From the NCBI GenBank assembly GCA_021776335.1, contig JAJFGB010000011.1, forward strand, positions 186,001 to 250,000: a stretch of DNA of 64,000 nt, given 5' to 3'. The notes beneath the pieces were generated by a model. It was not told where the DNA came from and did no database searches. It saw only the letters and a list, made by a program, of their open reading frames with translations. Positions 55,498 to 60,040 of this stretch are shown piece after piece. Both the position numbers and the translations under genes were made by a program. This DNA comes from Hyphococcus sp. (GTDB lineage Bacteria; Pseudomonadota; Alphaproteobacteria; Caulobacterales; Parvularculaceae). Numbering within the stretch: position 1 is the first letter of the stretch; each line of letters opens with the position of its first letter.

Positions 55498-55630
55498 AGG
55501 CAGAACGCATGGCGTTACAGGACCTTCACGTCAATTGTGCGGCGGCAAGGGCGTCTTGGCCGGCATGTGTGTTTACGCCGACGGCGGTGGGCGGTAGTCT
55601 CGCCGCCGATTGTTGCGGAAGGGACGAGTG

Positions 55631-56965
55631 ATGCTGCGTTGGTCGGTTAAGTCTTTGAAAGCAGGGTTGTTTTTTGCAGCCTTCGTGATGTTGGCTGCTT
55701 GCGCGACCTCTGCGCCGCAATCTGGTCCGGTCGTCGCCCAACCGGACCGGAACGATATTGATCCCTTGCCGCGGCCGGATATCGAAATCGAAGCTGAGCG
55801 CTATGATCGCCGGGGTTTTGTCCGGCCGCCTCATTTGGGCGATGACGCGCCTGTGCGGGTGGCTTTATTGCTGCCTTTCACAGCAAACAGTGAAACGGCG
55901 CAAAAAGTTGCTGCAGCAATGTTTGACGCAGCTCAGCTGGCGGTTTTTGACGCTGGCGACGAGCGCTTTTTGCTGATCCCAAAAGATACAAGAGGCGACC
56001 CTGAAGGCGCTGCGGCGGCCGCGCGCTCAGCATTGGCGGATGGCGCCGAAATTGTTCTCGGTCCGCTATTTTCAGAATCGGTCGAAGCGGCCGCTGCTGT
56101 GACGCGCGCGGCGAGTGTCCCCATGATTGCCTTTTCATCGGATATTAAATCCGGTGGTGACGGCGTTTATCTTCTTAGTTTCCCTCCCGAACTCGAGATT
56201 GCGCGCGTCACGGATTACGCGGTGTCGCAGGAAATGACCCGGTTCGGTGTGCTTGCGCCGCTGACGGCTTATGGTGACCGTGTCTCGAGCGCTTTTGCGG
56301 AAGAAGTATTCGTGCGCGGTGGCGTGATCATTCATGAAGAGCGCTATGAGCAGGAACCGGACGCGATGCTCGCGCCAGCCAAACGGCTGGCTGAATATTC
56401 CGAAGAAATCATTCCGATTGAGATGCGTCATGATTTCGATCCTAATGACCCGGAGCCTCAACCTGCGGAAGCCGGTTATACATATGGTTATCAGGCAGTG
56501 ATGATGCCGGAGCAGGGAACCTTGTTGCGCGCGCTGGCGCCGCTTCTGCCCTATTATAATGTTGACATTAACCGGGTAAAAATTCTTGGTGTTTCCTCCT
56601 GGAACAATCCGCGCCTGACGAGAGAGCCCGCGCTTCGGGGCGGCTGGTTCGCCGCGCCCGATCCCGAAATCAAGCGCAATTTTGACGAGCGTTTTGCAGC
56701 TGCGTTTGGCGCGCCACCGCCGCGTCTTGCTTCGCTCGCCTATGACGCCAGTCTTTTGTCTGCGCGACTTGCGGCGACGCAGCGCCGCCGCAGCCGGTTT
56801 GACAAGCGCGCCATCACGGACCCCAACGGCTATTATGGCGCGGATGGGCTCTTTCGCCTGAACGCAGATGGTTCGGTAGAGCGCGGCCTCGCCATTCTTG
56901 AAATCCAGCCCGGCGGCATTCAGGTAGTCGACCCGGCGCCAAGGAGCTTCGCGCCGAGTTTCTGA
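55631..56965 (+). CDS. LpoA-like penicillin-binding protein activator (periplasmic binding fold)
   Basis: A signal peptide ends at the lipobox MLAAC, giving an envelope lipoprotein. The rest is a type 1 periplasmic binding fold (about 80-440: RVALLLPFTANSETAQKVAA, GAEIVLGPLFSESVEAAAAV). It corresponds to LppC/LpoA, which activates class A penicillin-binding proteins, although the N-terminal TPR part of LpoA is missing, as in other Alphaproteobacteria. The ATG MLRWSVKSLKAG is preferred over an earlier one. It converges on the DUF2721 gene. Confidence 0.87.
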   Translation: MLRWSVKSLKAGLFFAAFVMLAACATSAPQSGPVVAQPDRNDIDPLPRPDIEIEAERYDRRGFVRPPHLGDDAPVRVALLLPFTANSETAQKVAAAMFDAAQLAVFDAGDERFLLIPKDTRGDPEGAAAAARSALADGAEIVLGPLFSESVEAAAAVTRAASVPMIAFSSDIKSGGDGVYLLSFPPELEIARVTDYAVSQEMTRFGVLAPLTAYGDRVSSAFAEEVFVRGGVIIHEERYEQEPDAMLAPAKRLAEYSEEIIPIEMRHDFDPNDPEPQPAEAGYTYGYQAVMMPEQGTLLRALAPLLPYYNVDINRVKILGVSSWNNPRLTREPALRGGWFAAPDPEIKRNFDERFAAAFGAPPPRLASLAYDASLLSARLAATQRRRSRFDKRAITDPNGYYGADGLFRLNADGSVERGLAILEIQPGGIQVVDPAPRSFAPSF

Positions 56966-57444: not shown

Positions 57445-58590
57445 CTATCCAAGCAAATCATAAAGCAGTGTGTTCAAAACCCGCCGGCCATTGGTTGTTG
57501 CACGCAGACGTCCGCAATCATGGGTTAAAAACCCGTCCGCGATAAGTTGTTTCAAGGTCTTCGCGCGGTTGTCGTCAGCATAGAAATGATCGTCGGCATA
57601 GAGATTGATGCCGTCTGTAAGGCGAAGACCCATGGTGAGGCGTTCGGTTAACTGAGCATCTTTGTCAAGCGGATCCTTAAGCGACTGGCCTGAACCGGTT
57701 TTTTCCGTCGCCTCTAAATAGCCGCCTGGTGCGCGATGGGTCTCCGTCGCCAGGCGCTCGCCGCCAACAGTAACGCGCCCATGCGCGCCGGGCCCAACGC
57801 CGATATAATCCTGATAATTCCAGTAAATGAGATTGTGCCGGGACTGATCGCCCGGCGCGGCATGATTGGATATCTCATAAGCGGGAAGGCCAGCCTCGTT
57901 TGTCATCTCCTGGATGAGGTCGAACTGATCGGCGCAGGCATCCTCGCTTGCCGGCATCCAGCGCCCTTTATCAACTGCCTTGGCAAATGCGGTGCCTGGT
58001 TCAATGGTGAGCTGGTACAGAGATAGATGCGTCGGGCCGAGCGCTAAAGCATCGTCCAGTTCGGAGCGCCAATCCTCCAGCCCCTGTCCCGGGCGTCCAT
58101 AGATGAGGTCGAATGTCATGCGCGGAAAGGTTCGTTGCGCGATATCAATAGCATTGCGGGCAGACGCGGCGTCATGATCACGTCCCAAAAATTGTAGCGC
58201 ATCATCACGAAGAGATTGAACGCCGAGGGATAATCGGTTCACCCCGGTTTTTGCAAAAGCGTCAAATCGCGTTTGCTCTGCGTTTGTTGGATTCGCTTCC
58301 AGTGTTATTTCAGGGTTGGAATGAAATCCCCAAAGCCGATCACAGGTTTCAATGATCGCTTCGATCACAGAAACCGGCGCCAGTGAGGGCGTGCCGCCAC
58401 CAAAATAAAGGCTCGTCAGTTTGCGCGGCTCAATACGATCGGCCCAAAATTCGAGGTCGCGTGTCAGCGCCTGCGCCCAGCGCGCAGCATCAATGTCGCG
58501 GTTTTTATAAATATTGAAATCGCAATAAGGGCAGATTCGCGCGCAATAGGGCCAATGGACATAAACCCCTAGCGGTGAGGCTTCACTCAT
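57445..58590 (-). CDS. hemW: Radical SAM heme chaperone HemW
   Basis: Heme-binding radical SAM protein related to coproporphyrinogen III oxidase HemN. VYVHWPYCARICPYCDFNIY holds the CxxxCxxC cluster motif (C16, C20, C23), and LYFGGGTPSLAP and LSLGVQSLRDDALQFLGRDH are family signatures. At 381 residues it is full length, with the C-terminal HemW extension. Its start lies inside the last codons of the beta-lactamase gene (8-nt overlap), so it is translationally coupled to it. Confidence 0.95.
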   Translation of the reverse strand: MSEASPLGVYVHWPYCARICPYCDFNIYKNRDIDAARWAQALTRDLEFWADRIEPRKLTSLYFGGGTPSLAPVSVIEAIIETCDRLWGFHSNPEITLEANPTNAEQTRFDAFAKTGVNRLSLGVQSLRDDALQFLGRDHDAASARNAIDIAQRTFPRMTFDLIYGRPGQGLEDWRSELDDALALGPTHLSLYQLTIEPGTAFAKAVDKGRWMPASEDACADQFDLIQEMTNEAGLPAYEISNHAAPGDQSRHNLIYWNYQDYIGVGPGAHGRVTVGGERLATETHRAPGGYLEATEKTGSGQSLKDPLDKDAQLTERLTMGLRLTDGINLYADDHFYADDNRAKTLKQLIADGFLTHDCGRLRATTNGRRVLNTLLYDLLG

Positions 58591-59380
58591 TGGCGGCGTC
58601 GGCGAGCGCGATCGTGTGGTCTAACAGCTCGCGTCCGCCTTTTGCCCCATGAGAGGGGATGATAATTTCAGCGTCGGGAAATTCGGCGGCGACTTTACGC
58701 ACCGCATTCGCCCAATTAGCGATGTCAGCATCGGCAGTATTGCCCAGGCTGTTGGACTTGCCCGGTCTGATCAGGCAACCGCCGAACAATATTTTTGCGG
58801 ACTCATAATAGATAACGATATTGTCTCGAGTGTGCCCCGGACCTGGGATGAAGGTCATCAAGCCGCTGTCTATGCTTGCGCCGCTAATGACATCGTGGAA
58901 TTGAAAACTGCTCGAGCGGCCGGCAAAAGTGTTTCCAAACCAGCCTCCTGCCGGAATGAGGTCCCGATCAACAGCATCGTCATTCGTGAGCACATATGCC
59001 GATGTTTGTATGCTCGCATCATGCAGGGCTTGCATGCCGCCCATTTTGTCTTGGTGCGCATGAGTGAGAATGGCGGCTTTTGGCGGCTCGCCCGCCGCTG
59101 TCTCGATCAAGGCCAATATTTTTTTGGTGGCCTCGTTATCCCAGGCTGTATCAACCAGAACGACTCCGTCATCTGTTTTCACCACCAATCCTTGGGAGAG
59201 GACCGGCCCCCAGGGCTCTATGATTTCATAGCTCTTGTGGATCCATACACCGTCCGCGACTTTTTCCAGCGCCGGCTCAGGGAGGGCTTTATTTTCGGCG
59301 GCGTCCAAACTGTCTGCAGCCATGGTGGCGCAGGCGCTGAACACAGCACCCAAAAACAGCAGGCGTAAATATCGGATCAT
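58583..59380 (-). CDS. bla: Subclass B1 metallo-beta-lactamase
   Basis: Zinc hydrolase of the metallo-beta-lactamase superfamily with every B1 ligand: H107, H109 and D111 in LTHAHQDKMGGMQALH, H183 in PGPGHTRDNI, C202 in FGGCLI and H244 in PSHG. The spacings 183-202 and 202-244 (19 and 42) equal those I recall for NDM-1 (189, 208, 250). N214 fits the substrate-binding asparagine, while the NDM lysine after the cysteine is Arg205. The N-terminus is a signal sequence ending FSAC, perhaps a lipoprotein site (the -3 residue is Phe). B1 enzymes hydrolyse carbapenems and other beta-lactams in the periplasm; activity here is inferred. The ATG overlaps the rdgB stop and the end overlaps hemW. Confidence 0.88.
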   Translation of the reverse strand: MIRYLRLLFLGAVFSACATMAADSLDAAENKALPEPALEKVADGVWIHKSYEIIEPWGPVLSQGLVVKTDDGVVLVDTAWDNEATKKILALIETAAGEPPKAAILTHAHQDKMGGMQALHDASIQTSAYVLTNDDAVDRDLIPAGGWFGNTFAGRSSSFQFHDVISGASIDSGLMTFIPGPGHTRDNIVIYYESAKILFGGCLIRPGKSNSLGNTADADIANWANAVRKVAAEFPDAEIIIPSHGAKGGRELLDHTIALADAANE

Positions 59381-59991
59381 CAATTAAAAACCACTTTAAT
59401 CAGCTTACGGAAGGCATCAGCGCGATGCGACATGGCATGTTTTGCGGCAGGGTCCATTTCGCCGAAAGTTATATCATGGCCATCAGGAATAAAGATCGGA
59501 TCATAGCCAAAGCCATTGTCGCCGCAGGGCGGGAAAGCGAGTTGGCCGCGCACTTCGCCCTCAAAGATTTCTTCGCGACCATCGGGCCAGGCGAGGCAAA
59601 GGGCACAGATAAAGCGGGCGCTGTGGTCTTCGCTGCCGGTCGCCTCAAGCGCTTTTTCGACTTTTTTCATGGCGTTGGTGAAATTTCGAGGCTCACCGGC
59701 CCAGCGCGCCGAATATATGCCTGGATCGCCGCCAAGGGCGACGACATCCAACCCTGAATCATCGGCCAGGGCGGGCAGGTTTGAGCCCTCTGCAGCGGCC
59801 CTCGCCTTGATAATGGCGTTCTCGGCGAAGGTTTTTCCGGTCTCTTCCGGGTCATTTAAACCGATTTTTTTTGCCGACACCGCCTCAATCCCAAAAGATT
59901 TAACTAAGTCATTGATCTCAATGATTTTTCCGTCATTGTGAGAGGCTATAATTAGCCTCTCAGAACCCAGTTTTGACACCTTTTCGCCCAT
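59380..59991 (-). CDS. rdgB: RdgB/HAM1-type XTP/dITP pyrophosphatase
   Basis: Removes inosine and xanthosine triphosphates from the nucleotide pool. LIIASHNDGKIIEINDLVK is the start motif, EETGKTFAENAIIKA and LADDSGLDVVALGGDPGIYS hold catalytic residues, and GFGYDPIFIPDG and SHRADAFRKL follow. The ATG (MGEKVSKLG) gives 203 residues; the frame continues upstream from a TTG, but that part covers the promoter region. It leads the rdgB-bla-hemW unit. The usual neighbour rph is missing. Confidence 0.95.
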   Translation of the reverse strand: MGEKVSKLGSERLIIASHNDGKIIEINDLVKSFGIEAVSAKKIGLNDPEETGKTFAENAIIKARAAAEGSNLPALADDSGLDVVALGGDPGIYSARWAGEPRNFTNAMKKVEKALEATGSEDHSARFICALCLAWPDGREEIFEGEVRGQLAFPPCGDNGFGYDPIFIPDGHDITFGEMDPAAKHAMSHRADAFRKLIKVVFN

Positions 59992-60002
59992 GTTTTTATC
60001 CC

Positions 60003-60030
60003 TTTTCGGCAAAAATTTATCGTTTTTCGG
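60003..60030. repeat. Direct repeat TTTTCGG(C)AAAAA, 21-nt period
   Basis: TTTTCGGCAAAAA occurs at 60003 and again, nearly unchanged, 21 nt later at 60024. The period is close to two turns of DNA, and the copies lie between the rdgB start and the promoter of the micropeptide operon. This is a plausible pair of binding sites for the downstream HTH protein or another regulator. Confidence 0.35.
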
Positions 60031-60040
60031 CAAAAAAGAC

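Follow-up and report, generated by a model that had tools for sequence, protein, structure and literature searches.

A predicted subclass B1 metallo-beta-lactamase gene resident between rdgB and hemW in Hyphococcus and other Parvularculaceae

Introduction

Subclass B1 metallo-beta-lactamases (MBLs) include the carbapenem-destroying enzymes FIM, NDM, and VIM. In the survey of Berglund et al. 2017 (PMC5637372), groups B1-1 and B1-2 contain NDM, FIM, VIM, IMP, and others, the chromosomal hosts of B1-1 are Alpha- and Deltaproteobacteria, and imipenem was hydrolyzed by 18 of 21 predicted B1 genes. Further sources describe the closest systems: marine ElBla2 (Erythrobacter) hydrolyzes meropenem and cefotaxime with a turnover below that of NDM-1 (PMC5770381), NDM enzymes are membrane-anchored (PMC12326980), and the enzyme of Hirschia baltica is called HBA in a naming review (PMC10740994). 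Here, we analyzed 64,000 nucleotides of a Hyphococcus sp. genome (GCA_021776335.1, contig JAJFGB010000011.1, positions 186,001 to 250,000; hereafter the window), in which a B1-type gene, bla, lies between rdgB and hemW. It is likely that bla encodes an exported B1 lactamase, forms the middle of an rdgB-bla-hemW row, and represents a private chromosomal lineage with losses and swaps. The direct results behind this proposal are the class and ligands of the sequence, the order and junctions of the genes, the clade of bla and the selection on it, and a census of the rdgB-hemW slot. Several proteins of the genus are already named "subclass B1 metallo-beta-lactamase" by NCBI, so genes of this kind are annotated. 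No prior report of the conserved order, the variable gap, or this lineage was found in the open-access literature, a coverage that leaves out most subscription papers.

Results

The bla protein passed the NCBIfam model for subclass B1 (NF033088; E 1.2e-66, 224.5 bits, cut-off 200), and the top match of a PDB search with it was a B1 enzyme (E 3.4e-53), a match to B1 structures that places it in the metallo-beta-lactamase fold. All six B1 zinc ligands were present (H107, H109, D111, H183, C202, and H244; 116, 118, 120, 196, 221, and 263 in standard numbering), together with the motifs THAHQDKMGGM and GGCLI and with spacings of 19 (183 to 202) and 42 (202 to 244), which we take to be those of NDM-1. 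The intact B1 gene claimed in the preliminary description was thus recovered in full, with its open reading frame (ORF), six ligands, spacings, motifs, and overlaps, at an E value far beyond chance. Two narrower assignments were rejected, the NDM family model (NF000259) giving 161.5 bits against a cut-off of 580 and the FIM family model (NF000437) 190.4 bits against 590. Because the protein scores above the B1 cut-off and far under both family cut-offs, it is assigned to B1 but to neither the NDM nor the FIM family. The earlier label "NDM-like" therefore held for the class but was too loose as to NDM likeness, because the nearest solved enzymes by sequence are the Hirschia baltica MBL, ElBla2, and FIM-1. 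As judged from its sequence, bla adds a member to a known enzyme class and is a relative of FIM, NDM, and VIM, and its product would belong in B1-1. Of the 14 Lactamase_B superfamily matches in the window genome, it alone matches the B1 model at E 1e-50 or better. Separately, the same genome has matches to a class A beta-lactamase-type domain (PF13354) at G000:C8:674256-674699 and G000:C10:792641-793084, in frames of 503 and 393 aa.

Arg205 (standard position 224) had been singled out as notable, a view that the alignment did not bear out: the residue is ordinary among kin, occurring in 15/15 aligned rows (window included) and in FIM-1 and the Hirschia enzyme. Arg224 is also described for DIM-1, GIM-1, and TMB-1 in PMC4599830, where, as in our alignment, NDM-1 and ElBla2 have Lys at 224 in contrast to the Arg of the window enzyme. 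Possible signs of export, both read by eye, are an N-terminal hydrophobic stretch and a lipobox-like FSAC. The lipobox Cys was likewise read by eye in nine of the 13 Parvularculaceae slot copies, and among these nine, Phe at position -3, earlier mentioned as notable, is confined to the window copy.

The position of bla was then compared across genomes. At E 1e-20, bla was found in 12 of the 28 genomes of the genus, and the order rdgB-bla-hemW was kept in 12/12 of these; Amphiplicatus (another genus of the same family) and Euryhalocaulis (Maricaulaceae) also have a B1 gene between rdgB and hemW. In the order sample, 33/299 genomes had a match over the B1 cut-off, 12 of them among the 27 genus genomes (window genome counted); 14 of 30 B1 loci in this sample lay in the rdgB-hemW slot, and the other 16 had neither rdgB nor hemW within up to 1.5 kb on each side. 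The slot held 12 of the 56 loci in a second B1 set. In the class sample, 3/385 genomes passed the cut-off, window genome counted, and the other two loci (L177 and L178) had no rdgB or hemW in the flanking stretch examined.

At the junctions of the window copy, TGATG gives the rdgB stop and the bla start one base in common, and the hemW ATG lies in an 8-nt overlap with the bla end, both as first claimed. Wherever a slot copy had several candidate bla starts, the ATG closest to the rdgB stop was chosen. Across the Parvularculaceae slot copies, the distance from rdgB to bla was -8 to +1 nt in 12/13 (overlapping or abutting), and that from bla to hemW was -11 to -4 nt in 13/13; the two junctions of the Euryhalocaulis gene are each a 4-nt overlap. 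The ratio of nonsynonymous to synonymous substitution (dN/dS) of bla was 0.12-0.19 in five pairs with dS from 0.5 to 2.3, which points to purifying selection, although the larger estimates are rough because dS reaches 2.3. The guanine-cytosine content of bla, overall and at third codon positions, was native in comparison with 56 window ORFs. No plasmid copy reached 60% identity, though 2,708 plasmid records hold B1-type relatives; no close relative was found on viral contigs; repeats flanking bla were short and imperfect, with no clear flanking repeats; and neither mobile-element domains nor regulator genes were found in the eight neighboring ORFs scanned. A long-resident chromosomal gene is well supported by these results. 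The earlier picture of an old, operon-coupled resident accordingly stands with regard to gene order (12/12 plus Amphiplicatus, without mobile traces in the neighbors), junctions (12/13), selection, and native composition; it falls short in that the gene is not fixed in the genus.

A B1 tree of 65 rows was built from the window, 45 of the 56 second-set loci, 12 order-sample loci, four plasmid references, and three PDB sequences; L083, L101, seven apparent extra NDM copies (L102-L104 and L106-L109, recognized solely by their equal scores), L110, which is short, and L114, which is distant, were left out. The window enzyme fell among B1 enzymes (FIM-1, NDM, ElBla2, and VIM), not outside them, in a 13-row clade exclusively of Parvularculaceae slot copies (support 100/97). 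NDM-1 fell in a separate 10-row clade (100/100) with mostly Erythrobacteraceae and Sphingomonadaceae enzymes, ElBla2, and a Comamonas gene, and FIM-1 grouped with environmental enzymes of a proteobacterium and Lujinxingia (100/96). Approximately unbiased (AU) tests rejected a clade joining NDM-1 and its Comamonas relative to the 13 slot enzymes (p 0.0005), and likewise one joining FIM-1 to them (p 0.016). The suggestion of a possible relative of the NDM ancestor was thus not sustained, and only a shared large B1 group remains; in this sampling, the sequence comparison places the window enzyme outside the NDM line of descent. Nor does this lineage reveal where NDM or FIM came from. Two other Parvularculaceae B1 genes, L081 and L096, lay outside the 13-row clade and had no rdgB or hemW in the flanking stretch examined. 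Neither a clade uniting the Euryhalocaulis gene with the 13 slot enzymes (AU p 0.24) nor a grouping of the genus copies to the exclusion of Amphiplicatus (p 0.46) was rejected. In the tree, the Euryhalocaulis gene is placed outside the 13-row clade, and its branch is very long (1.59, or 2.65 without Inquilinus and L020). This gene of Euryhalocaulis caribicus (L099 / L005) is a highly diverged B1 gene with 37% identity and HSHED replacing HAHQD, located in the same gap in another family.

Compared with the window protein, the Hirschia baltica enzyme (PDB 6v54 series) has 42-43% identity and lies in a different tree clade. Its PDB sequence is at zero tree distance from the gene of genome G110 (L010) and identical over the compared columns; unlike the slot copies, this Hirschia-type gene is flanked by neither rdgB nor hemW within 1.5 kb. 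FIM-1, an acquired enzyme of Pseudomonas aeruginosa, was the top PDB match of the slot-family profile (269 bits) and has in common with the window enzyme the stretches GGCLIRP and GNTADAD and 44% identity in a structural alignment, but the closest database proteins of the two differ, with no id in common between the best 120 listed for each. The nearest database proteins to clinical FIM-1, P0122-P0127, have 74-83% identity to it and could point to its source; two are encoded on contigs of >200 kb. Identity to NDM is about 40%. Over 216 columns, the B1 enzyme encoded by the Comamonas testosteroni SWCO2 scaffold (L111) has 91% identity to NDM-1.

The rdgB-hemW slot was surveyed in 62 family genomes by an approximate census from match coordinates, in which both genes were readable in 59 (G283, G194, and G228 were unreadable). 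The slot was closed in 38 genomes (5-128 nt between matches), held bla in 13, and held other cargo in eight. This cargo was an AAA ATPase of 394-395 aa in six genomes (G273, G179, G253, G094, G144, and G300; the Pfam AAA_16 domain was checked for the G094 copy alone); G134 had two NUDIX genes instead, and G005 had a transposase-like ORF carrying an rve domain. Relatives of the ATPase at E 1e-30 occurred in 8/62 family genomes and not in the window genome; G298 has bla in the slot and an ATPase relative elsewhere in the genome. Minimum changes on a 40-row rpoB DNA tree, counted without second rpoB copies and G283, were five for bla/no bla and 11 for all slot states; on an rdgB+hemW tree, they were seven and 14, with Euryhalocaulis entering the 14 only. 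Within one tight group, G278 and G258 have bla, G299 is closed, and G273 and G179 have the ATPase (G258 in the rdgB+hemW tree only), suggesting that slot exchange is still going on. As a new observation, the rdgB-hemW gap is a slot of variable content that gains and loses entire genes. The bla tree was tested against the rpoB groups; the constraint was not rejected, and no significant conflict was seen. Two rpoB copies per assembly were present in G189 and G278 (L125, L126, L121, and L138), and the G189 pair hints at contamination of that assembly because its two copies lie far apart in the tree.

Coordinates of the features are collected in Table 1. Two genes past hemW, an LppC/Peripla_BP_6 protein is encoded at window positions 55610-56965 (+), adjoining rsmI and a UPF0102 gene. 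The LppC family includes activators of penicillin-binding proteins.

Table 1. Features of the bla locus and of the rdgB-hemW gap
Feature	Position in window	Strand	Basis
bla, predicted subclass B1 metallo-beta-lactamase, 265 aa from ATG	58583..59380	-	ORF, profile score, PDB matches, ligands, tree
Zinc ligands His107, His109, Asp111 (HxHxD)	59048..59062	-	invariant in 15/15 aligned rows
Zinc ligand His183	58832..58834	-	alignment
Zinc ligand Cys202 and Arg205 (standard position 224)	58766..58777	-	both invariant in 15/15 rows
Zinc ligand His244	58649..58651	-	alignment
Lipobox-like FSAC, residues 14-17, closing the N-terminal hydrophobic stretch; possible lipoprotein anchor	59330..59341	-	read by eye
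rdgB, non-canonical purine NTP pyrophosphatase, upstream gene	59380..60033	-	TIGR00042, 173 bits (cut-off 145)
hemW, radical SAM heme chaperone, downstream gene	57445..58590	-	TIGR00539, 272 bits (cut-off 205)
rdgB-hemW gaps with non-bla cargo, L043-L050 (G005, G273, G134, G179, G253, G094, G144, G300)			

Discussion

The bla product would be a two-zinc subclass B1 hydrolase that is exported and opens beta-lactam rings in the periplasm, and a lipid on Cys17 may tether it to a membrane. Hydrolysis of beta-lactams by this protein is predicted from its sequence. The gene is read as the middle one of an rdgB-bla-hemW row that is presumably co-transcribed, and because of this position, its product is probably made at a steady level by ribosomes leaving rdgB. 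Steady expression seems likelier than a function shared with RdgB or HemW because the gap holds unrelated genes in other species. If the inheritance of bla was mainly vertical, it would have entered the slot no later than in the common ancestor of Marinicaulis/Hyphococcus and Amphiplicatus, and many descendants would later have lost it or swapped it for other genes, loss being favored over repeated gain. The simplest history is a single gain followed by vertical passage, with losses or swaps on several occasions, because no significant conflict between bla and rpoB was seen; the weak resolution leaves room for exchange.

Several observations weigh against this proposal. No bla match at E 1e-20 was found in 16 of the 28 genus genomes, some of them incomplete, and the patchy distribution (at least five or at least seven changes) makes some gain or exchange possible. 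Once the long rows are removed, the best bla tree nests Amphiplicatus, weakly (77/38), within the genus copies, and the bla tree joins G040 with G099 and G124 (99/93, 100/93, and 98/93), whereas rpoB prefers G189 (100/99), though this constraint was not rejected. Amphiplicatus has +76 nt between rdgB and the bla ATG, and coupling is therefore not universal. The lipobox Cys is absent from 4/13 slot copies. Finally, in PMC5637372, 3/21 predicted B1 genes were inactive in the imipenem screen.

The last point also bears on the possibility that the B1 scaffold kept by the bla product mainly serves another substrate (a lactone or a cell-wall-derived compound, for example) and cleaves beta-lactams weakly or not at all. 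A location in a housekeeping row with no regulator among the eight neighboring ORFs would suit such a role, as would the lower efficiency reported for Arg224 enzymes on some substrates, penicillins above all (PMC4599830). We nevertheless regard this alternative as improbable, given the complete B1 ligands, the B1 equivalog score, the tree position among FIM-1, NDM, ElBla2, and VIM, and the cleavage of meropenem and cefotaxime by ElBla2, itself a chromosomal marine B1 enzyme (PMC5770381). Recent acquisition of bla as a mobile resistance gene is very improbable: many B1 genes are mobile, and B1-type relatives occur in plasmid records, but the plasmid copies are all below 60% identity, viral contigs lack a close relative, the surrounding repeats are short and imperfect, and the gene has a native composition and the same location in 13 genomes.

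A history in which the rdgB-hemW gap acts as a hot spot of insertion, and bla came in from outside on several occasions instead of entering once and being lost later, deserves more weight and is still unlikely. The ATPase, NUDIX, and transposase-like cargo, the bla, closed, and ATPase states together in the tight group, and the B1 gene of 37% identity that occupies this gap in another family all fit repeated insertion. Independent gains would be expected to import other B1 lineages, and for this reason, the single clade of 13 Parvularculaceae copies excluding all other sampled B1 enzymes (100/97) counts against them; a clade that also includes the Euryhalocaulis gene was not rejected either. 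More tentatively, the gap may be a standing cargo site whose genes are swapped by recombination through the flanking genes, with the lactamase keeping its start-stop overlaps at either end. Its lineage would be deep, vertically held, and possibly as old as the split between Parvularculaceae and Maricaulaceae, because the Euryhalocaulis B1 gene occupies the same gap with overlapping ends. We hold this extended version to be possible but doubtful.

This B1 lineage has a constant chromosomal position, and the collections searched gave no sign that it is mobile; matches over the B1 cut-off occur in 12 of 27 genomes of the genus against 3 of 385 across the class, window genome counted in both. The lineage offers a test bed for the role of B1 enzymes in non-clinical bacteria, and the changing content of the operon gap could be used to examine the way in which genes of the resistance type become established in housekeeping operons.
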